DNA of 64,000 bases from Halobacteriales archaeon YIM A00013. Lineage in GTDB: Archaea > Halobacteriota > Halobacteria > Halobacteriales > Haloarculaceae. Positions 1,410 through 25,314 of this stretch are shown in pieces. The stretch is taken from contig JAKCFM010000001.1 in NCBI GenBank assembly GCA_025041195.1, positions 2,542,001-2,606,000 of the forward strand. The letters are read 5' to 3'. How positions within the stretch are numbered: position 1 is the stretch's first letter; each line of letters begins with the position of its first letter. The notes beneath the pieces were generated by a model. It did not search any database. It was not told the DNA's origin and saw nothing but the letters and a program-made list of their open reading frames with translations. A program made the translations under genes and the position numbers.

Positions 1410-3167
1410 ATGGCAGGGGCTCCTCCAGAAGACGAACTTATCAATAGCTTACAGACATTTGCTGAAGCGGTCGATGGTACCCCCACCATCCGAGAAATGG
1501 ACGATGAGGGACCGTACTCTCCATATTACTACAAAAAGACATTTGGGAGTTGGCATGACGCACTCCTTGAAGCAAATATCCAGCCGACACACGGGGTTGA
1601 GCTCGATGCTGATAGGGAGGATTTGATAGATGAATTAAAAAATGTTGATGAAAACATTGATCGTCCACCCAGACGGGTAGATATCGAAGCGCATGGCCAG
1701 TACCCCTTTGAGCTCTATCAGGACGAATTCGAATCATTTGTCCTGGCGCTAGAAGCTGCAGATATCGAACCAGACGAAAAACAGTACAGATTCAGTTCAG
1801 TAGCAGTTCCTGACGATAAAAAGGGGTCGGCTAACATCAAAAAGCTCCGTGCTGACGGGCCAACTCCCTCCTCGGAACTACCGAATGGGCGGAGTACGAA
1901 GGATAGAAACCGTGGAATGTGGAAATTTACCATCAATTCGGGCTCCACCAATCCTTCGAATGCAATTTACTATCTTGATGGTAAACACGCTCCTGAATCT
2001 GTCATCCGGGAATTTTTCGATACGAATCCGCACGTGTTCGAGTATCGTGAACCACACGGCATCAAGATCGATATCAAAAATCACCATTCCTCGTGGCAAT
2101 CCATTGGTAAAAGAATTATTGATGAATATATGGACGGTAATTATGAGGAAGAATCCACATTCGGAAGTTTGGCAATAATACGGACGCATGCGAGCGAAAC
2201 ACAGCAGTATTGTTTTGAACAGTCCGTTTCTGAACCGGTCTCTCCCGACTGCTTAGCGACCGAAACGGGAGATATTCCTGATCCCTGTACTGTTTGGGGC
2301 GTAACGCAGAAGAACAAACCACTCTGGGAAGCGCTATCAGAAAATGATGGGGTGTTGTTCTGCACTCAGGAAGGGACCATTACCCATTATATTTCGGTAA
2401 CCACGACAATTCGTGATTCCGACGGAATGAAGGAGTTATGGGTTGAGTACGAAGACGGCATTCGGAGTGGTGGAATTGAGTCTCCGCGGCCATATTTGAT
2501 CGTCGGTTCGCCTGTAACGGAGGTTTGTATCCCAGAATCAGATATTGCTGACTCTCTCCCCATAGCGTTTGATGCGGAGCCCGTCCAGATCCTCCAGAAA
2601 GAAGTCCTTGAACCTCTATTGGACAAGCATCGGGATTTCGAGTCGTATCTCCACACCGTAGACCCAGCAGCTGATCATCCGTCGGATGGGGGCGCCCCTG
2701 CAACCGAGAAAGTACGCCAGGACGCGGTGAGCGCGTTATTACGGCTCTCTAGGGATGACCTTCCGGTTTATCTTGACGATTCACGGTTCGAACCGTTCGA
2801 TCCCGAAACCCGTGAAGCCGCGTTTCGAGCGGCCATTCATGAGATATATCACGGATGTGCGATCTGTGGAATCCGCATCGAATCTCCCCATGGATCGCAT
2901 AATTTGAAGGCTGTACGCATTCTCTCTCAAGCGCAGGGAGGTCCTCCCGTGTTACAGAACGGTCTTGTTCTCTGTCATCGACACCATTGGGGATTCCAAA
3001 ACGGATGGTTTGATATCACCCCCGAATTCACTATTTCAGTCAATGATCATCCTGATCTGGAGGGATTTGACGCAATGGATCAATATGATGGATCGTTGTT
3101 ACAGCTTCCCCAGAGGAAGAAGCACCGTCCTCACCCAGCGTATTTTGACCAGCGAGACAGTAGATAA
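1410..3167 (+). CDS. HNH endonuclease with N-terminal homing-endonuclease-associated repeats
   Basis: A 585-residue protein. Residues about 8-115 hold two repeats of the homing-endonuclease-associated type, each about 50 residues and centred on F-G/E-S-W/F plus an ALEAAxI-like helix; these are thought to bind DNA. Residues about 125-470 are unassigned. The C-terminus (about 480-550) is an HNH nuclease: a CAICG zinc knuckle, a His-rich stretch, then CHRHHWGFQNGWF. It is more AT-rich than the gene before it, which hints at transfer. It lies 1.1 kb upstream of a type I restriction operon and may be a second defence nuclease, but no partner methylase is adjacent. A solitary homing-type nuclease is the alternative. 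Confidence 0.75.
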   Translation: MAGAPPEDELINSLQTFAEAVDGTPTIREMDDEGPYSPYYYKKTFGSWHDALLEANIQPTHGVELDADREDLIDELKNVDENIDRPPRRVDIEAHGQYPFELYQDEFESFVLALEAADIEPDEKQYRFSSVAVPDDKKGSANIKKLRADGPTPSSELPNGRSTKDRNRGMWKFTINSGSTNPSNAIYYLDGKHAPESVIREFFDTNPHVFEYREPHGIKIDIKNHHSSWQSIGKRIIDEYMDGNYEEESTFGSLAIIRTHASETQQYCFEQSVSEPVSPDCLATETGDIPDPCTVWGVTQKNKPLWEALSENDGVLFCTQEGTITHYISVTTTIRDSDGMKELWVEYEDGIRSGGIESPRPYLIVGSPVTEVCIPESDIADSLPIAFDAEPVQILQKEVLEPLLDKHRDFESYLHTVDPAADHPSDGGAPATEKVRQDAVSALLRLSRDDLPVYLDDSRFEPFDPETREAAFRAAIHEIYHGCAICGIRIESPHGSHNLKAVRILSQAQGGPPVLQNGLVLCHRHHWGFQNGWFDITPEFTISVNDHPDLEGFDAMDQYDGSLLQLPQRKKHRPHPAYFDQRDSR

Positions 3168-4291: not shown

Positions 4292-5788
4292 ATGACTCTT
4301 TCCCTCGATGAACTCGAATCTCATCTGTTCAAGTGTGCGGACATAATTCGGGATGCGGTCGATCCAACGGATTACAAGGAGTACATTCTTCCGCTGGTCT
4401 ACTACAAGTCCATCTCTGATGAGTTCGAAAAGCAGCATTCGCAGAACGTCGAAGAATACGGCGAGGAGTTCGCCCGTCGGGAGAATTTGTACGACATCCC
4501 CGTCGTTTCAGATGGGTATCTGTGGGATGATCTTCGATCAGTTAGCGACAACGTCGATCAAGCGTTAAACGAGGCGTTTGGTGCGCTGACCGAGGCAAAT
4601 CCGGAGCTTGCGGGCGTATTTCGCGCAGACTACATTGACGCCGACGCGCTGGACGATGACCGTCTCGGACGGCTCGTCGAACATCTCTCGAAGCACGATC
4701 TCGACCGCAATAGCGTGCCCCCGGACATGCTCGGAGAGGCGTACATGGATCTGGTTCGCCATTTTGCGGAAGAAGAGGGTAAATCTGGCGGGCAGTTTTT
4801 CACGCCGCCCCACATCGTTCGGCTGTGTGTTCGGTTGGTTGATGATTTTGCGGACGGCGATACGTTCCACGACCCGACCGTGGGATCGGGTGGAATGCTC
4901 ATTGAGGCGGCCGAATATTATCGCGAGGAGCAGGGCGGCGATCCCTCGAAGCTGACGTTCACCGGTCAGGAGGTCAATCCCGACATCGCCGCGATTGCGA
5001 CGATGAACCTCTCGATTCACGGGTTGAACGGCACGATCGAGCGTGAGGATTCCTTATCAAATCCGCAATTTACGGGCGAGGAGGAACTCACGCGCTTCGA
5101 TCGGGTGCTGGCAAACTTCCCATTTTCCTCGGATTGGGCCAAAAGCGAGTTGCAAGACGATCCGTGGGGACGGTTCGACTGGCACGAGAAGCTTCCCAGG
5201 GCTGATCGAGGCGATTACGCCTTTATCATGCACATGGCAGAGCAGTTGAAGACGCCCGAAAAGGATGGCACTGACGGAAAGGCGGCGATCGTCATTCCCC
5301 ACGGCGTGCTGTTTCGCAAGCACGAGAAACGGTATCGAAAGCCGATGTTGGAGTCGGATCTGGTCGAGGCGATCGTCGGGTTACCCGAGAACCTCTTTCA
5401 GAACAACTCGATTCCGTCGGCGATCCTCGTGTTGAATACCGACAAGCCGGACGAGCGTGAAGACGAAGTGCAGTTCATTCACGCGGCTGATGAGGCGTTT
5501 TACGATGAGCTATCGAATCAGAACGAGTTGACCGAGGCGGGTCTCAGCCACATTATCGAGAACTTTCGGGGGTGGGAAACGGAGGAGCGCGTGAGTCGGA
5601 CGGTTCCGCTGGAGGAGATCGAGGAGAACGATTACAACCTGAACATTGCGCTTTATGTCGATACGACCGAGCCGGAAGAGGAGATTGACGTTGCTGAAGA
5701 GCTTGGGAAGTTGCGGGAACTGCAGGAGGAGCGGGCGGCAATTGAGTCGCGAATGAACCAGCACATGGAGGCGTTGAACTATGAGTGA
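4292..5788 (+). CDS. hsdM: Type I restriction-modification methyltransferase subunit HsdM
   Basis: A 498-residue N6-adenine DNA methyltransferase. Residues about 1-120 form the HsdM N-terminal helical domain (begins LDELESHLFKCADIIR). The methylase domain shows GGQFFTPPHIVRL, the SAM-binding motif DPTVGSGGML, and the catalytic motif in the form NFPF where NPPF is usual. A C-terminal helical stretch (EELGKLRELQEER) is suited to subunit contact. HsdM with HsdS methylates the host recognition sequence and forms the core of the restriction complex. First gene of the operon; its stop is overlapped 8 nt by hsdS. Confidence 0.95.
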   Translation: MTLSLDELESHLFKCADIIRDAVDPTDYKEYILPLVYYKSISDEFEKQHSQNVEEYGEEFARRENLYDIPVVSDGYLWDDLRSVSDNVDQALNEAFGALTEANPELAGVFRADYIDADALDDDRLGRLVEHLSKHDLDRNSVPPDMLGEAYMDLVRHFAEEEGKSGGQFFTPPHIVRLCVRLVDDFADGDTFHDPTVGSGGMLIEAAEYYREEQGGDPSKLTFTGQEVNPDIAAIATMNLSIHGLNGTIEREDSLSNPQFTGEEELTRFDRVLANFPFSSDWAKSELQDDPWGRFDWHEKLPRADRGDYAFIMHMAEQLKTPEKDGTDGKAAIVIPHGVLFRKHEKRYRKPMLESDLVEAIVGLPENLFQNNSIPSAILVLNTDKPDEREDEVQFIHAADEAFYDELSNQNELTEAGLSHIIENFRGWETEERVSRTVPLEEIEENDYNLNIALYVDTTEPEEEIDVAEELGKLRELQEERAAIESRMNQHMEALNYE

Positions 5789-7112
5789 GAAGGCTACGTT
5801 GGATGAGTTCGGTCAGACTGAAAAAGAAGTAACGGAGAAACAGAGTGTTGAGGTGGTTGGTATTGGTGAGTTACAACAACTTGAAGAGTCCCCAATTAAA
5901 TCGTGGGACCTTTCGAAGCTCGGTGAGATCCTATCACTCGAATACGGTGATAATCTACCCTCTAATAGCCGCCAAGTTGGTGATATCCCTGTTTATGGTT
6001 CTAATGGACAAGTAGACACTCATTCTGAAGCGGCTGTTGACAGCCCCGGAATCGTGCTAGGACGGAAGGGTTCGATTGGCAAATTCGAATTTAGTGAGAG
6101 CCCTTTCTGGCCAATAGACACAACATACTATATAACCAGTGAAGAGACCAGCCAGAACCTACGCTTTCTTTATTATCTCCTTCAAAATCTCCAATTAGAA
6201 AGGCTAAATGCTGCTTCTGCGATACCTGGATTGAATCGGAACGACGCCTATGGTCTAAACGCTCTTGTCCCACATCCCGAAGAACAGCGCAAAATCGCCA
6301 CCGTACTCCACAACGTTGATCAAGCGATTCAGAAGACAGAAGAAATTGTTGATCAAGCGGAGAAGGTTAAGAAAGGGGTTATCCAGGAGAATATTTTGAA
6401 TAAAATTTCAAAATCGTCGTCACCAACAGCCCTTGGTAATATTCCTAATAACTGGGATAAAGTGAAATTAGAAGATGCCGCAAGTAAACAGGAAGGCTCT
6501 TTTGTTGATGGACCGTTCGGATCAAGTCTCAAGGCTGAAGAGTTCGTGGAGGATGGATTCGCACGAATACTACAGCTACAGAACGTTAAGGAAGGGTGGT
6601 ACTGTGACAGCAATATTCGATATATTACTGAGGAAATTTATACAGAGTTAGAACGACACAGTGCAGAACCTGGGGACTTGTTCATCGCCAAAATGGCATC
6701 TCCGGTAGCAAGATCATGTATATTACCAAGTAAGTATGACCATTATATGCTTGGATGTGCAGATGTAGTAAAGCTAACTCCGAATGAAGAATTCGTCGAT
6801 GAATTCATCATGTACTGTCTAAATTCATATCCCGTCTGGAAACAGGCAGCAGCACATATTCGTGGGAGTGGAAGATTGCGAGTGAATTTGAATCAGCTAA
6901 AAAAGGTTGAATTGCCAAAGCCACCTCGTGATGATCAAGAGAAAATAGTGACAGCTGTTAATGGGATAAGCAATTTTATTGACTCACACAAAAAGGAAAA
7001 ACAGCAATTCCAACGCCTCAAAAAATCCCTCATGCAAGATCTTCTCTCCGGGAAAGTCCGCACAACCGACACATCCATAGCGGTGCCTGACGAAATCAGG
7101 CAACATGGTTAG
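5781..7112 (+). CDS. hsdS: Type I restriction-modification specificity subunit HsdS
   Basis: A 443-residue DNA-recognition subunit with the usual duplicated plan. Target-recognition domain 1 spans about 35-175 and is followed by conserved helix 1 (PEEQRKIATVLHNVDQAI). Domain 2 spans about 215-375 (starts IPNNWDKVKLED; GSGRLRVNLNQLKKVELP near its end) and is followed by helix 2 (DDQEKIVTAVNGIS). The two domains read the two halves of a bipartite site; the site cannot be deduced. The coding sequence is visibly richer in A/T than hsdM and hsdR, as is usual for rapidly exchanged hsdS genes. It overlaps hsdM and hsdR by 8 nt each. Confidence 0.95.
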   Translation: MSEKATLDEFGQTEKEVTEKQSVEVVGIGELQQLEESPIKSWDLSKLGEILSLEYGDNLPSNSRQVGDIPVYGSNGQVDTHSEAAVDSPGIVLGRKGSIGKFEFSESPFWPIDTTYYITSEETSQNLRFLYYLLQNLQLERLNAASAIPGLNRNDAYGLNALVPHPEEQRKIATVLHNVDQAIQKTEEIVDQAEKVKKGVIQENILNKISKSSSPTALGNIPNNWDKVKLEDAASKQEGSFVDGPFGSSLKAEEFVEDGFARILQLQNVKEGWYCDSNIRYITEEIYTELERHSAEPGDLFIAKMASPVARSCILPSKYDHYMLGCADVVKLTPNEEFVDEFIMYCLNSYPVWKQAAAHIRGSGRLRVNLNQLKKVELPKPPRDDQEKIVTAVNGISNFIDSHKKEKQQFQRLKKSLMQDLLSGKVRTTDTSIAVPDEIRQHG

Positions 7113-10077
7113 CATTCCCTCCGAAAGTGGTGTCGAACAATCATTATTATCGTGGCTATCTGATTGTGGGTGGGAAACGCACGGACAGGACGGCAGCCGT
7201 GGCGCGACGGTTCTTGATGACGCCTACAACCGCCAGAGCCACGAAGTGATCTACTGGGAGCTGCTCGAAGAACGGATCACCACGATTAACGACATTTCAG
7301 AAGTCGACGCCAAGCGGTTTATCGAATCGCTCAAACGCGATCTCGACGCCGAGAACCTGATGGACGGGAACCGCGCGTTTCACCGCTTGCTCACGAAAGG
7401 CAAATCATTCACAGTCACGAACGAGGACGGAACGAGCGAAACACGGTATATTCACCTGATCGACCACGACGAACACGAGAACAACCGCTTTCACGCCGTC
7501 AATCAGTTCTCAATCTCCAGAGAAACGACCATCCGCCCGGACGTGAGCCTGTTCGTTAACGGGATCCCGCTGGTGACGATGGAACTGAAAGGCCTCACAC
7601 AGGACAACGACTGGCACGATGCGGTCCGCGACCTCCACGATTACGAGACATCGGTTCCACGGCTGTTCGTCCCCGGCCTGTTCAACGTCGCTGCCGACAC
7701 GATGGAACTGCGCTACGGCGCGGTCGGCGCACCCAAAGCGTTCTACGAACCGTGGAACGACGCCCCCGAAGAGCACACCGACGATAACGAGATGAAACAG
7801 GCGGTCAACGCCCTCTGCAATCCCGATGCCGTCCTCGACCTGCTGAAGAACTTCGTCTTTTACGAACGGCGAGCCGGTGGCGACGCGAAGATCATCCCGC
7901 GCTACATGCAGTACTACGCGGTCAACGCAATCCTCGACCGCGTCCGTGAGGGCGAGCACAAGCGCGGTCTCGTCTGGCACACCCAGGGATCGGGAAAATC
8001 CTTCACGATGCTGTACGCCGCCCAGAACCTGCTATCACGAGACGCCATCAACAGCCCGCAGGTGTTCATCGTCGTGGACACGGATAAGCTCGACAGCCAG
8101 ATGCGCGATCAACTGGGGAATCTCTCACTAGAGCAGTGGACCAGGGCACAGCGCATCGACCACCTCGAACGGCTCATCGAAGACGGCCAGAGTGAGCTCG
8201 TCCTCACGACCATCCAGAAATTCCAGGATGTCGAGCCCGACACGCAAGGCAACGACGAGGTGGTCGTCATGAGCGACGAAGCCCATCGATTCATGGAGGC
8301 CGACCTCGGAAGTCGCCTCGATGCTGCACTCCCTGACAGCTACCACTTCGGATTCACCGGAACACCAGTTCGGGAAGGCCAACGCCACAAGGATCGCAAC
8401 ACGTTCCGCGAATTCTCACCCGAAGGAGAAGATTACCTCCACCGATATTCGATCAAACAGGGCATTGATGATGAATTAATTCTCCCTGTGTACTTTACGC
8501 TCCGCCACGATATGGAGTGGAACATCGACGAATCGGGCCTCGATGAGAGATTCGAACACGAGTTTCAGGGCCTCTCCACCGAGGAAAAACAAGCAGTTAT
8601 ACGTAAAGAGGTAACTGCCACCGATCTCGCTGAAATTGAGCCTCGAGTTGACCACGCTGTCGAGGAGATCGATGGCCACTACGAGGAACACGTCGCGCCG
8701 AACGGCTGGAAGGGGATGGTTGTCACGCCGAGCCGTCGATCGGCGGCAATGTACGGTAAGCGACTCATCGAACGCCGTGGCGAGAATGAGGTGAAAGTTC
8801 TCTACTCCTCAACCAACGATGATCCCGACCTGATCCAGCAGTTTCAAACTGATCCCGAGGAACGTGACGACATCATAACAGCGTTCAAACGAACTGACAA
8901 AGAAGCTGATGAAAAAACGCCGAAGCTGCTGGTGGTCCACAACATGTTGTTGACGGGTTTCGATGCGCCGATTTTGAAGACAATGTATCTGGATCGGAAC
9001 ATCAAAAACCACACCCTCATGCAAGCGATCGCGCGAACGAACCGACCCGCCGAGGGAAAGGAAAATGGTGAGATCGTGGATTTCCAGGGTGTCTTCAAGA
9101 ACGTAGATGAGGCTCTGGACTACGACGCTGAAACGAGAGCCTACGCTGCCCGCGATAAGGACAAACTGTATGACGAGCTCATTGAGCAATTGGAGACGGT
9201 CATGGCGGTCTTTGAGAATATACCAAAAGATGACTCCCAGGAAGCCGTTTCCACAGCCGTCGAGCGCGTCAGTACTCATCCAGAACGACGCACATTCAAA
9301 CAGGGATTTCGACGACTCCAGAACCTCTACGAAGCCGTTGCTCCAGACAAACGACTCGTAAACAAAGGAGTTGAACGTAACTACAAGTGGCTCAGCCGGA
9401 TACACGTTGCGTTCAAACGGACGACAGCGGGCGACGACGATCCCGAAGCGAACATGCGAGAGAAAACGCGGGAGATTATCAGTGAAAATATCGAAATCGA
9501 GAAAATAAAGCGCGATTTTCCGACCTACAAGCTCGGGGAGGAGTACCTCGCGGACGTAGAAGGGTTGGATACTCCCGGCGTAAAGGCCTCGCAGATTGCC
9601 CATGCGACCCGAGAACATTTGCACCCACGTGAGAACCAAAATCCCCGCTATAAGCGTTTGAGCGAGCGTGTTACTGATATCGTCGAACGCTGGCAAGGCG
9701 ACGCCATCGGCGATCCTGAGGCGGTTGCGGCGCTGAAGTCAGTCGAAAAAGCGGTCCTTGATGTGGAAGACGAGGCCGAAGAGCAGGGGATGGATGACGC
9801 GGAGTTTGCCATCTACACGCACTTGACTGAAGAGACCCCCAAGGGGATTGACTCGGAAGCCCAGGCCGAAGCCGTTGCTGAAACGATCGTCTCACAGTTC
9901 CACGAACGTGTCGACCGAAAGTATCACGGATGGAAGACAAACCAACAGACCATCACAGAAATCGAGCGTATTCTATTGGACGTACTGGTCAAAGACTACG
10001 ACCTGGGACATTTGATACGGGAAGACGATGGAATCATAGACACGATGCGAAACTACTGCATCGAGAATTATGAATAG
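7105..10077 (+). CDS. hsdR: Type I restriction endonuclease/translocase subunit HsdR
   Basis: A 990-residue motor and nuclease subunit. The N-terminal PD-(D/E)xK nuclease is seen as RPDVSLFVNGIPLVTMELKG (about 152-171). The SF2 helicase follows: Walker A QGSGKSFTML (about 294), DEAH in VVMSDEAHRF, motif III FGFTGTPV, then the second RecA domain with LLTGFDAP and QAIARTNR. The rest is the helical C-terminal region that docks on HsdM/HsdS. It translocates unmethylated DNA and cuts it far from the recognition site. No frameshift or missing key residue is seen, so the system looks intact. Confidence 0.95.
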   Translation: MVSIPSESGVEQSLLSWLSDCGWETHGQDGSRGATVLDDAYNRQSHEVIYWELLEERITTINDISEVDAKRFIESLKRDLDAENLMDGNRAFHRLLTKGKSFTVTNEDGTSETRYIHLIDHDEHENNRFHAVNQFSISRETTIRPDVSLFVNGIPLVTMELKGLTQDNDWHDAVRDLHDYETSVPRLFVPGLFNVAADTMELRYGAVGAPKAFYEPWNDAPEEHTDDNEMKQAVNALCNPDAVLDLLKNFVFYERRAGGDAKIIPRYMQYYAVNAILDRVREGEHKRGLVWHTQGSGKSFTMLYAAQNLLSRDAINSPQVFIVVDTDKLDSQMRDQLGNLSLEQWTRAQRIDHLERLIEDGQSELVLTTIQKFQDVEPDTQGNDEVVVMSDEAHRFMEADLGSRLDAALPDSYHFGFTGTPVREGQRHKDRNTFREFSPEGEDYLHRYSIKQGIDDELILPVYFTLRHDMEWNIDESGLDERFEHEFQGLSTEEKQAVIRKEVTATDLAEIEPRVDHAVEEIDGHYEEHVAPNGWKGMVVTPSRRSAAMYGKRLIERRGENEVKVLYSSTNDDPDLIQQFQTDPEERDDIITAFKRTDKEADEKTPKLLVVHNMLLTGFDAPILKTMYLDRNIKNHTLMQAIARTNRPAEGKENGEIVDFQGVFKNVDEALDYDAETRAYAARDKDKLYDELIEQLETVMAVFENIPKDDSQEAVSTAVERVSTHPERRTFKQGFRRLQNLYEAVAPDKRLVNKGVERNYKWLSRIHVAFKRTTAGDDDPEANMREKTREIISENIEIEKIKRDFPTYKLGEEYLADVEGLDTPGVKASQIAHATREHLHPRENQNPRYKRLSERVTDIVERWQGDAIGDPEAVAALKSVEKAVLDVEDEAEEQGMDDAEFAIYTHLTEETPKGIDSEAQAEAVAETIVSQFHERVDRKYHGWKTNQQTITEIERILLDVLVKDYDLGHLIREDDGIIDTMRNYCIENYE

Positions 10078-10792
10078 GTTCCAATGCCGAGAAATTGACT
10101 TGTTGGGAAACTCCCTCAAGTACGAGGTACGTCATAGTGCTGACGCCACGGATCCTCGGATCGATATCGATATTCACGGCGTGACGGTTGTTATCCCCGA
10201 GGCCGAGGACGTTCAGCCAACGAAGTTGCTTGAAGAGAATGCAGCGTGGGTCATCGAGACACAACGGAGCTACGACAGCTATCGAGAACAAGCACCTGAT
10301 CGGAATTTCGAGGCTGGTAACTACTTTCCGTATCTGGGTGAAGATCGGGAACTCGTGATCGAATCTTGTAGGAAAAACGAGATAACTGAGAATTCGATTC
10401 GTCTCCGACAGTGTGCTGTCGAGCAGTCATCGGTGAAACAAGCGCTAGAAAACTTCTATCGAAGCCATGCACGGAACCACCTTACTGATCGCGTTGATCA
10501 GTACGCCAATCGGATGGATGTAGGCTACAAGACCCTAGAACTCCGTAATCAGCGTACACGATGGGGAAGTTGTTCGACGAATGGGACGATCAGTCTGAAC
10601 TGGCGGCTTATCATGGCACCACCGGAAATCGTCGACTATCTTGTCGTTCACGAACTCGCACACCTCACCGAACAGCACCACGGACGAGAATTCTGGCAAC
10701 TTGTTGGAGAATACATTACCGACTACAAAACGAAGGCTGAATGGCTCGAAGAGAACAGTGCAAGACTGATATTTAGTGAAGATGATTTGTAA
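10070..10792 (+). CDS. YgjP/SprT-like zinc metallopeptidase in the hsd operon
   Basis: A 240-residue protein of the YgjP/DUF45 (M48-like) metallohydrolase family. Zinc-site motifs are HELAH at 194-198 and a further His at 203-204 (EQHHGREFW); the family marker RTRWGSCS starts at 172. It overlaps hsdR by 8 nt, the same coupling used between the other hsd genes, so it is made with the restriction complex. Such genes are known as type I neighbours. A plausible job is proteolytic control of HsdR, or repair-linked proteolysis as with SprT, but this is inference. Confidence 0.88.
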   Translation: MNRFQCREIDLLGNSLKYEVRHSADATDPRIDIDIHGVTVVIPEAEDVQPTKLLEENAAWVIETQRSYDSYREQAPDRNFEAGNYFPYLGEDRELVIESCRKNEITENSIRLRQCAVEQSSVKQALENFYRSHARNHLTDRVDQYANRMDVGYKTLELRNQRTRWGSCSTNGTISLNWRLIMAPPEIVDYLVVHELAHLTEQHHGREFWQLVGEYITDYKTKAEWLEENSARLIFSEDDL

Positions 10793-23564: not shown

Positions 23565-24410
23565 GTGCAATTTCACATTGTCGACGTGTTTTCGGCGGAT
23601 CCGTATGCCGGCAATCAGCTCGCCGTCATCGAAAGCGAACGACGACTCGACGCCGAGGCGATGCAGGCTATTGCTGCGGAGATGAACTACTCCGAGACGA
23701 CGTTCATTGAGTCGTTCGAGACGTTCGACGTGCGGATTTTCACGCCCAGCGATGAAATTCCCTTTGCGGGCCATCCAACGCTAGGGACCGCGAGCGTCAT
23801 TCGTGATCGAACTGACGCGGTCGAGCCAACGCTTTCGCTGCCGGTGGGCTCAGTTCCAGTTCACGTTGAGTCGACCCCAGCAGGTGACGTGCTGTGGATG
23901 ACCCAGCAGCCCCCTACGATGGGCGAGACGATCGACCGGTCTCAGGCGGCAGAGTCGATTGGTGTCGATGCAGAACACATTGATGGACCAGTGCAGGTCG
24001 TCTCAACCGGGCTTCCGACGATCATCGTTCCCGTTGCCGATCGTGAGATTCTTGAGGCGGCTACGATCGATGACGATGCGTACACGGCACTGGTCCAATC
24101 GCGTGACGCAAAGAACGTGCTCGTCTACTGTGATTCTCCCCGATCGGCGGCCAACGATTTCGCCGTCCGTGTGTTCGCACCTGCACTTGGTGTGCCAGAA
24201 GATCCGGCGACCGGCAGCTCGAACGGCTGTCTGGGGGCGTATCTCCACGACCAACGTGGTGAACCGATCGACGCTCGGATTGAACAGGGAGAATCGATGG
24301 GGCGCCCGTCGCTATTGTACATTCGCGCTGACGACGATGGTGTGCAGGTTGGTGGCTCGGTGTCGCGGGTTGCAACCGGGTCGCTCTCACTTCCAAATCA
24401 AAACGGGTAA
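23565..24410 (+). CDS. PhzF-family isomerase-like protein
   Basis: A 281-residue PhzF-fold enzyme. Family markers are HIVDVFSADPYAGNQLAVI at the N-terminus, the conserved catalytic Glu in MNYSETTFI, PFAGHPTLGTA, and DPATGSSNGCLGAYL in the second half. The family includes phenazine-pathway isomerases and many proteins of unknown substrate; nothing nearby suggests phenazine production. The GTG at 23565 (reads VQFHIVDVF) is the likely start; an earlier GTG at 23526 directly abuts rnz and cannot be excluded. Confidence 0.87.
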   Translation: MQFHIVDVFSADPYAGNQLAVIESERRLDAEAMQAIAAEMNYSETTFIESFETFDVRIFTPSDEIPFAGHPTLGTASVIRDRTDAVEPTLSLPVGSVPVHVESTPAGDVLWMTQQPPTMGETIDRSQAAESIGVDAEHIDGPVQVVSTGLPTIIVPVADREILEAATIDDDAYTALVQSRDAKNVLVYCDSPRSAANDFAVRVFAPALGVPEDPATGSSNGCLGAYLHDQRGEPIDARIEQGESMGRPSLLYIRADDDGVQVGGSVSRVATGSLSLPNQNG

Positions 24411-24438
24411 TTGCACACCGGCGTTAGCATCACATCTA

Positions 24439-25314
24439 GTGGCAGTAAACACCGTTGGGGTGGTGATTTCGTCGTCAGTGCTGGTTTCTGGAGTGGCGTC
24501 ACCGATCAGTGGCGGCGCAGACCTCCTCGTCTTTCTGGCGATCGGGCTGTTCGGTGGTGCACACTGCATCGGCATGTGTGGGCCTCTTGTGACGACCTAC
24601 GGTGAACGGATGCAACGCGACGAGGGGTGGGACGGCGCACTCACGATTCACGACGTGCGCCAGCATGCGCTGTTCAACGTCGGTCGTACAATCGGGTATA
24701 GCGTTCTTGGTGGGCTGTTCGGGCTGCTTGGTGCGCTTTTTTATGGAACTGTCAAAATTGGTGGGATTGTCGGTCCCGTTCAGGGGGCGATGGGTCTCGC
24801 CGTTGGATCGCTCATCGTGGTGATGGGCGCAACGCGACTGCTTGGCTATCGGCAGGGCTCGGCGGAGGCACTCATCTCGGGAACGGGTGTCGGGTCGATC
24901 TTTGCCCGCACATATGCCGTCGTCTCCGGCCGACTCGATCGGCTGGTCAACGGAACGGGAATCGTCGGATTGGGTGCGATGCACGCGCTGTTGCCGTGTA
25001 TGCTGCTCTATCCCGCGTTTCTCTACGTCTTCGCGCAGGGTTCGCCGCTGTATGGGTTCATCGCACTCGGTGCGCTTGGTGTCGGAACGATCCCGACAGT
25101 GTTCGTTTACGGCACGCTCGTTCCGTCGGTTGGCCCACGGCATCGACGCCTGCTCCATCGCGCGCTCGGGATCTGTTTCATCGGCCTGGGCTACGTGATG
25201 GTCGGTATGGGTGCCCGACGGTTCGGAATCGGTCTGTGGCTCCCCGACATTCCATTCTACCAACCGCTCTCTGTGACACAACAGATCACTCATGCAATCG
25301 TGTACACTCTGTGA
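24439..25314 (+). CDS. TauE/SafE-like membrane protein linked to copper P-type ATPase
   Basis: A roughly 291-residue membrane protein with six or more hydrophobic segments. The signature GGAHCIGMCGPLV in the first conserved helix is that of the SafE/UreH-like group usually found beside CcoI-type copper ATPases; HALLPCMLLYPAFLYVF is the matching second-half motif. It overlaps the following ATPase gene by 23 nt, so the two are translationally coupled. A role in copper delivery to a haem-copper oxidase is inferred from this pairing. The start is uncertain; GTG 24439 is the earliest sensible codon. Confidence 0.8.
   Translation: MAVNTVGVVISSSVLVSGVASPISGGADLLVFLAIGLFGGAHCIGMCGPLVTTYGERMQRDEGWDGALTIHDVRQHALFNVGRTIGYSVLGGLFGLLGALFYGTVKIGGIVGPVQGAMGLAVGSLIVVMGATRLLGYRQGSAEALISGTGVGSIFARTYAVVSGRLDRLVNGTGIVGLGAMHALLPCMLLYPAFLYVFAQGSPLYGFIALGALGVGTIPTVFVYGTLVPSVGPRHRRLLHRALGICFIGLGYVMVGMGARRFGIGLWLPDIPFYQPLSVTQQITHAIVYTL

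Follow-up and report, generated by a model that had tools for sequence, protein, structure and literature searches.

A predicted zinc metallopeptidase encoded behind hsdR in type I restriction loci of archaea and bacteria

The window analysed here, a stretch of 64,000 nucleotides from the Halobacteriales archaeon YIM A00013 (assembly GCA_025041195.1, contig JAKCFM010000001.1, forward-strand positions 2,542,001 to 2,606,000), carries four genes end to end at positions 4292-10792, all on the + strand and all with ATG starts. Judged by their domains, the first three, hsdM, hsdS and hsdR, are predicted to form a complete type I restriction-modification operon, and the last, which encodes a YgjP-like protein that we call P, appears to be its dedicated fourth gene. 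The hsdR, hsdM and P genes share their descent across archaeal and bacterial genomes, P being the looser companion at short range. We propose, at somewhat short of an even chance, that P is a dedicated metalloprotease that removes or limits HsdR engaged on DNA, HsdR being the presumed substrate.

The locus and its predicted metallopeptidase

The features of the locus are as follows.

4292..5788, + strand: hsdM, type I N6-adenine methyltransferase subunit, 498 aa (Pfam HsdM_N 87 bits, N6_Mtase 272 bits; PADLOC MTase_I)
5781..7112, + strand: hsdS, specificity subunit, 443 aa (Pfam Methylase_S, two stretches; PADLOC Specificity_I)
7105..10077, + strand: hsdR, restriction/translocase subunit, 990 aa (HSDR_N 146 bits, SWI2_SNF2 192 bits, T1R_D3-like, T1RH-like_C)
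10070..10792, + strand: P, YgjP-like (PF01863) predicted zinc metallopeptidase, 240 aa, modelled as a beta-rich N-terminal domain and a C-terminal zincin domain
10649..10681, + strand: active-site segment of P, H194-E195-L-A-H198 ... H204, the metal ligands and the catalytic Glu being assigned by analogy
5781..5788, + strand: hsdM/hsdS overlap, 8 nt
7105..7112, + strand: hsdS/hsdR overlap, 8 nt
10070..10077, + strand: hsdR/P overlap, 8 nt, reading ATGAATAG

The domains are those of a type I system, namely an N6-adenine methylase in HsdM, two target-recognition domains in HsdS, and a nuclease with a SWI2/SNF2 translocase in HsdR, whose sequence also passes the TIGR00348 hsdR model (487 bits, cut-off 285). 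At E <= 0.001 the genome contains no PF01863 or HSDR_N match other than those of this locus.

P is a clear member of PF01863 (188.8 bits against a cut-off of 26), the only Pfam family that it matches, and Pfam finds no ATPase domain in it. No model of NCBIfam or PADLOC 2.0.0 matches P at E <= 0.001 (0 PADLOC families). His194, Glu195, His198 and His204 are invariant in all 21 rows of our alignment, and the motif HExxH(5-6)H is present in 85 of 85 hsdR-linked P. With its protease motif intact, P is predicted to be a zinc metalloprotease. Plasmid records label relatives as 'SprT family zinc-dependent metalloprotease', the genes being annotated separately.

A structural model of P (pLDDT 92.3) has its closest solved folds among the minigluzincins abylysin, jannalysin and selecase, at Z 12.4-14.7 over ~100 residues (7.0 for tetrameric selecase); abylysin, the best, gives Z 14.7 with an rmsd of 1.7 over 96 residues. 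These are catalytic domains of ~105-110 residues that lack the N-terminal part of P, and we know of no link between them and restriction. As is predicted for P, the DNA-protein-crosslink proteases Spartan (SprT domain) and Wss1 (WLM domain) have a zincin catalytic domain, and they match the modelled one of P at Z 9.0 (rmsd 2.5, 95 residues) and Z 8.1 (rmsd 3.8, 95 residues), respectively. Their identity to P is low (16-21%), however, and the N-terminal domain of P (model pLDDT 87.5) has no clear match, its best hit in the PDB being at Z 3.9, and its true fold may be another one. BlaR1 (8.6), Ste24p (8.4) and BepA (8.4) score level with Spartan and Wss1. By sequence, the family profile finds Schizosaccharomyces pombe Wss1 weakly (E=0.008) and abylysin better (E 1e-7). 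A third His ligand is described for Spartan in the part of PMC7213743 that we draw on. Three bacterial hsdR-linked P (L247, L248, L249) are ~120-130 aa long and consist of the catalytic part only.

Linkage and shared descent of P and hsdR

Across 194 genomes of Halobacteria, P is found beside most of the well-scoring hsdR genes. We kept 64 of 78 PF01863 rows (at least 78 bits, 14 weaker rows dropped) and 58 HSDR_N rows of at least 100 bits, one of them a broken gene (genome G180); 11 further HSDR_N rows scored 45-53 bits, and weaker rows were not used. P accompanies 48 of the 58 strong HSDR_N sites, always downstream on the same strand and 2.3-4.2 kb from the domain start, and lies near none of the 11 weaker ones. 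Seen from the other side, 48 of the 64 P sites are linked to hsdR, and for a 49th (L115) the hsdR ahead of it is truncated where the contig ends. The other 15 comprise five beside a divergent gene of ~800 aa, three broken or fragmentary copies (L091, L123, L124) and seven solitary genes. Pfam detected no peptidase in the eight open reading frames examined behind P-less hsdR, which represent 8 of the 13 P-less haloarchaeal loci retrieved.

In all 49 haloarchaeal loci the nearest ATG of P falls in a span from 20 nt upstream to 15 nt downstream of the hsdR stop, while hsdS and hsdR are more than 150 nt apart in 13 of the 49 and no hsdS was found in three, P still standing beside hsdR. Because P keeps to the hsdR stop throughout and hsdS can be distant or missing, gene position suggests that HsdR is the partner of P among the subunits.

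The association extends to bacteria and to mobile elements. In 143 genomes of Paraburkholderia's class, searched with HSDR_N at 77 bits or more (partial genes included) and P at a minimum of 88 bits (a fragment beside HsdR was among the 11 weaker rows set aside), P adjoins 23 of 74 HSDR_N sites and 23 of 106 P sites are linked; the order is hsdR then P on one strand in 21 of these 23. P stands beside hsdR in 12 of the 15 plasmid regions selected for viewing among 558 P-matching records, and the linked regions span Rhodothermota, Bacillota, Pseudomonadota, Cyanobacteriota, Bacteroidota and Deinococcota. The three regions without hsdR beside P are a HATPase-type locus, a Peptoclostridium megaplasmid and Synechocystis pSYSG, near the end of the record.

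At 47 of the 55 P loci from viral contigs, an HsdR match on the P strand stops 0-435 nt short of P. Five of the other eight (L271, L301, L317, L320, L325) have less than 700 bases of sequence upstream. PHROGs and phage records returned only weak or distant P matches. That P might be a virus-borne weapon against restriction is not favoured, given how regularly the viral-contig copies sit behind HsdR.

We then compared the descent of the genes. A quick tree, with several long branches, was built from 102 HsdR. Of these, 82 are accompanied by P and 20 are not, namely 12 from haloarchaea and 8 from bacteria, which were picked among 51 unlinked sites. The presence of P requires three changes on this tree, and the P-less HsdR form groups of their own. 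A FastTree tree of 169 P, its backbone weakly supported and three short P left out as too short, repeats most of the HsdR subclades; it places nearly all linked P in two groups, L246 excepted, and largely apart from the unlinked family members of the genome-contig scan described below. Pairwise distances of HsdR and P correlate at r=0.955 (n=79; none of 2000 permutations as high), those of HsdM and P at 0.950 and those of HsdM and HsdR at 0.977 (70 pairs with HsdM), values that include shared host descent, which adds to them, and that do not indicate which subunit is contacted.

The first-pass annotation had described four genes with identical 8-nt overlaps at their three junctions, which open reading frame coordinates and Pfam confirm, and had taken this constant coupling to show that the peptidase is an integral part of the system. 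The independently annotated (NCBI) homologue from Haloquadratum walsbyi has 8-nt overlaps at the same three junctions. Over 85 hsdR-P pairs, however, only 23 overlap by 8 nt and 28 by 4 nt, and three Bacillota loci have P in convergent orientation. Outside hsd genes, a by-eye count from an incomplete gene table of three annotated haloarchaeal plasmid stretches of 50 kb gave 13 co-directional overlaps, ten of 4 nt and three of 8 nt, two of the latter consecutive in a proline operon.

Among the 49 haloarchaeal hsdR-P loci, the window's HsdR clade has the hsdS ATG at 8 nt in 32 of 32 hsdM-hsdS junctions (one behind an hsdM fragment, L063), an 8-nt hsdS-hsdR overlap in 21 of 29 (gaps of at least 234 nt in the other eight), and an 8-nt hsdR-P overlap in 22 of 33, the other 11 having values of 20, 17, 11, -1 or -2. 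In the second haloarchaeal clade the hsdM-hsdS overlap is 4 nt in 14 of 14, hsdS and hsdR are separated by 1-10 nt in 12 of 14 and by a longer gap in two, and the hsdR-P overlap is 4 nt in 15 of 16. Junction lengths are thus inherited by clade, and the triple 8-nt overlap is inherited within the window's haloarchaeal HsdR clade. Since 8 nt is an ordinary class of overlap and the hsdR-P junction varies, the overlap alone carries little weight, and we reject it as proof of function. What survives of the earlier claim is its substance, that P belongs to the system, which is well supported by linkage, above all, and by the trees and co-divergence, in place of the junctions.

Proposed role and its alternatives

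Any unmodified site that arises in the host genome makes a type I enzyme a danger to its own cell. Given that P is tied to certain HsdR lineages, the simplest reading of such a protease is that it acts on DNA-engaged HsdR. We envisage that P, partnered with HsdR, would target DNA-engaged HsdR, alone or within an R-containing complex, should the enzyme stall or linger on the cell's own DNA. Such occasions would be entry into a naive host, unmodified sites left after replication or repair, or a translocating complex unable to finish. P would then cleave HsdR, free the DNA and limit self-damage. The outcome would be a built-in restriction alleviation, comparable to that of ClpXP on EcoKI, with a small single-chain metalloprotease in place of an ATP-driven machine.

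The comparison is with a well-described precedent. In the sections of PMC4231737 consulted, ClpXP is described as degrading the HsdR of EcoKI during translocation, and unregulated translocation as potentially toxic even without cleavage. How killing of a new host is avoided is understood mainly for EcoKI and EcoAI, through host ClpXP, and differently for EcoR124I, according to extracts of PMC4231737 and PMC12707154; these, together with an extract of PMC3874165, have EcoR124I restriction alleviated without ClpXP. The ClpXP alleviation of EcoKI and EcoAI (types IA and IB) resembles what we propose in that a protease is tied to type I control, and DNA-engaged HsdR is the proposed substrate of P; it differs in that ClpXP is an unlinked, ATP-dependent machine of the host, whereas P is small and encoded next to hsdR. 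It is plausible, as the first-pass annotation had suggested, that P, a putative protease, limits HsdR as ClpXP does in enteric bacteria. In keeping with this, P stays next to hsdR even where hsdS is more than 150 nt away, its zinc-protease site is intact, and the window's genome, 96.5% complete, has no ClpX above the cut-off (best 32 bits against 371) and no match to ClpP.

On nine HsdR, no NCBIfam model other than the general hsdR one scored above its cut-off. By eye, HsdR C-terminal tails, considered as a docking signal for P, differ between clades and show no P-specific motif. The HsdR of EcoKI was of no use as a yardstick, being too distant from P-linked and P-less HsdR alike to discriminate between them.

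Several observations weigh against our proposal. Two HsdR at the base of the window's clade (L220, L221) are without P. Within the window's own subclade (n=23) the correlations of P fall to 0.546 with HsdR and 0.539 with HsdM, against 0.893 between HsdM and HsdR, and overall HsdR is not singled out, because HsdM correlates with P as highly as HsdR does. Seven intact-looking solitary haloarchaeal P nest among linked ones, five of them in the window's group, and P can therefore persist without an adjacent hsdR. The structural matches do not single out DNA-dependent proteolysis, since Spartan and Wss1 are tied with BlaR1, Ste24p and BepA. Finally, in a pattern scan of genome contigs from bacteria and archaea, HsdR was found near only six of the best 80 P loci among the matches listed and near none of the other 74. 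For this the flanking sequence available was compared with eight HsdR, and a profile search arrived at an identical set of six. Although P is a clear member, the YgjP-like family at large is thus mostly not a restriction gene. The first-pass annotation had held that a consistently unlinked gene would count against its view; P is far from that in Halobacteria, but absence of hsdR is the rule in this wider scan.

The solitary genes deserve a note of their own. Those of the window's type are L062, L065, L082, L107 and L109, and three of the five genomes (G074, G090, G146) also have a linked P. Another of the seven, L092, is without the HExxH motif.

Bacteria of Paraburkholderia's class are expected to have ClpXP. 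As P adjoins hsdR in this class too, P is not simply a substitute for ClpXP, and replacement of ClpXP as the sole reason for P is weakened.

The main rival is that P helps restriction, stripping proteins such as virion proteins, anti-restriction DNA mimics or crosslinked proteins off invading DNA and thereby clearing the way for translocation and cutting by HsdR. The matches of the P catalytic domain include Spartan and Wss1, which cleave proteins bound to DNA (for Spartan, in the consulted part of PMC7213743), and P travels with HsdR on viral contigs, as a helper might. Yet the Spartan resemblance is not distinctive, a helper should benefit every HsdR lineage although P is confined to some of those sampled, and a partnership with the restriction enzyme itself would account more naturally for the co-divergence of the two; we consider the helper unlikely, if worth keeping in view. 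An abortive-infection effector, activated as HsdR engages foreign DNA and cleaving host or phage proteins to halt growth, would suit an operon that already senses foreign DNA and belongs to a kind of locus in which further genes for defence or toxins are frequent (for example Fic, AbiE, DarT or Abi, lying between hsdS and hsdR). Those inserted genes vary among the loci viewed, whereas P directly follows hsdR in most, and solitary P persist, so this weaker alternative strikes us as improbable.

Similarly weak is a role outside proteolysis, as a chaperone or assembly factor, by binding, or with the zinc site used on another substrate. ArdC offers a parallel: in the consulted text of PMC7213743 this antirestriction protein, which like P has a metalloprotease domain and a tie to HsdRMS, counters HsdRMS without needing its protease activity. 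It is unlike P in being a plasmid-borne inhibitor that acts against restriction and has an ssDNA-binding domain. The retention of HExxH...H in every linked P, and of the catalytic part alone in three of them, speaks for catalysis, and we rate a non-proteolytic role as rather improbable. Nucleotide hydrolysis, which has reportedly been described for Escherichia coli YgjP, would be an example of such another use, but 'UTP pyrophosphatase' was not met among the top-ranked results of our literature search. That P is a mere passenger, an unrelated gene that happens to adjoin hsdR, could draw on the 74 YgjP loci without hsdR, but we reject it as very improbable on the linkage frequencies, the three-change distribution and the co-divergence over archaea and bacteria; P is kept even in convergent orientation at the three Bacillota loci.

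It is tempting to carry the proposal of a protease acting on DNA-engaged HsdR further. A large share of archaeal and bacterial type I systems may really have four components, the fourth being an ancient, co-diversified metalloprotease activated by DNA-engaged complexes and disposing of stalled or self-directed HsdR, a generalization that we regard as possible but doubtful. If it were true, a built-in alleviation subunit would explain how such systems enter hosts that lack control by ClpXP and remain harmless there. In a protease gene passed on together with hsdR across archaea and bacteria, many systems would possess a safety device of their own, and restriction alleviation would become testable outside enteric bacteria. 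P would also add a component absent from PADLOC 2.0.0, and could bear on the spread of type I systems through plasmids and viral elements, where it usually accompanies hsdR in the loci examined. Among the top-ranked results of full-text literature searches we found no description of a link between hsdR and YgjP/SprT, which is not a claim of its absence from print; a figure legend in PMC3861447 shows COG1451 beside hsd COGs.

Neighbouring genes and other contexts

A second haloarchaeal context of YgjP-like genes (L089, L090, L120, L121, L122; also L135, 6965-7693) adjoins an oppositely oriented gene of ~800 aa, with genes of ~340 aa and ~280 aa alongside. Pfam finds HATPase domains in the ~800-aa product of L120, the only one scanned. 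The P of L090 is a fragment, and in L135 an N-6 DNA methylase lies downstream of the YgjP-like gene. This HATPase-type context is possibly another defence or regulatory system.

Other arrangements recur around hsd genes. Three loci (L068, L069, L070) have the order M-S-M-R-P. Their pair of methylase-like genes recalls the non-canonical type I systems that have two methylases, and their S-M and M-R junctions likewise overlap by 8 nt. In bacterial P-linked loci (L126, L128, L129, L133, L134, L268, L270), the genes inserted between hsdS and hsdR encode Fic, an AbiE pair, DarT with a reverse transcriptase, YecA, a HAD hydrolase, an ATP-binding protein, Abi and a NucS-domain protein. Some haloarchaea carry a gene for TATA-binding protein (TBP) immediately after their hsd genes, whether P is present or not (L222, L223, L263 at 24386-24940), and a 'transcription factor' is likewise annotated at plasmid record matches H4 and H5.

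In the window itself, ~1.1 kb before hsdM, positions 1410-3167 encode a protein of 585 aa that combines homing-endonuclease-associated repeats with an HNH domain and also matches a model of a phosphorothioate-DNA restriction enzyme weakly, below that model's cut-off.

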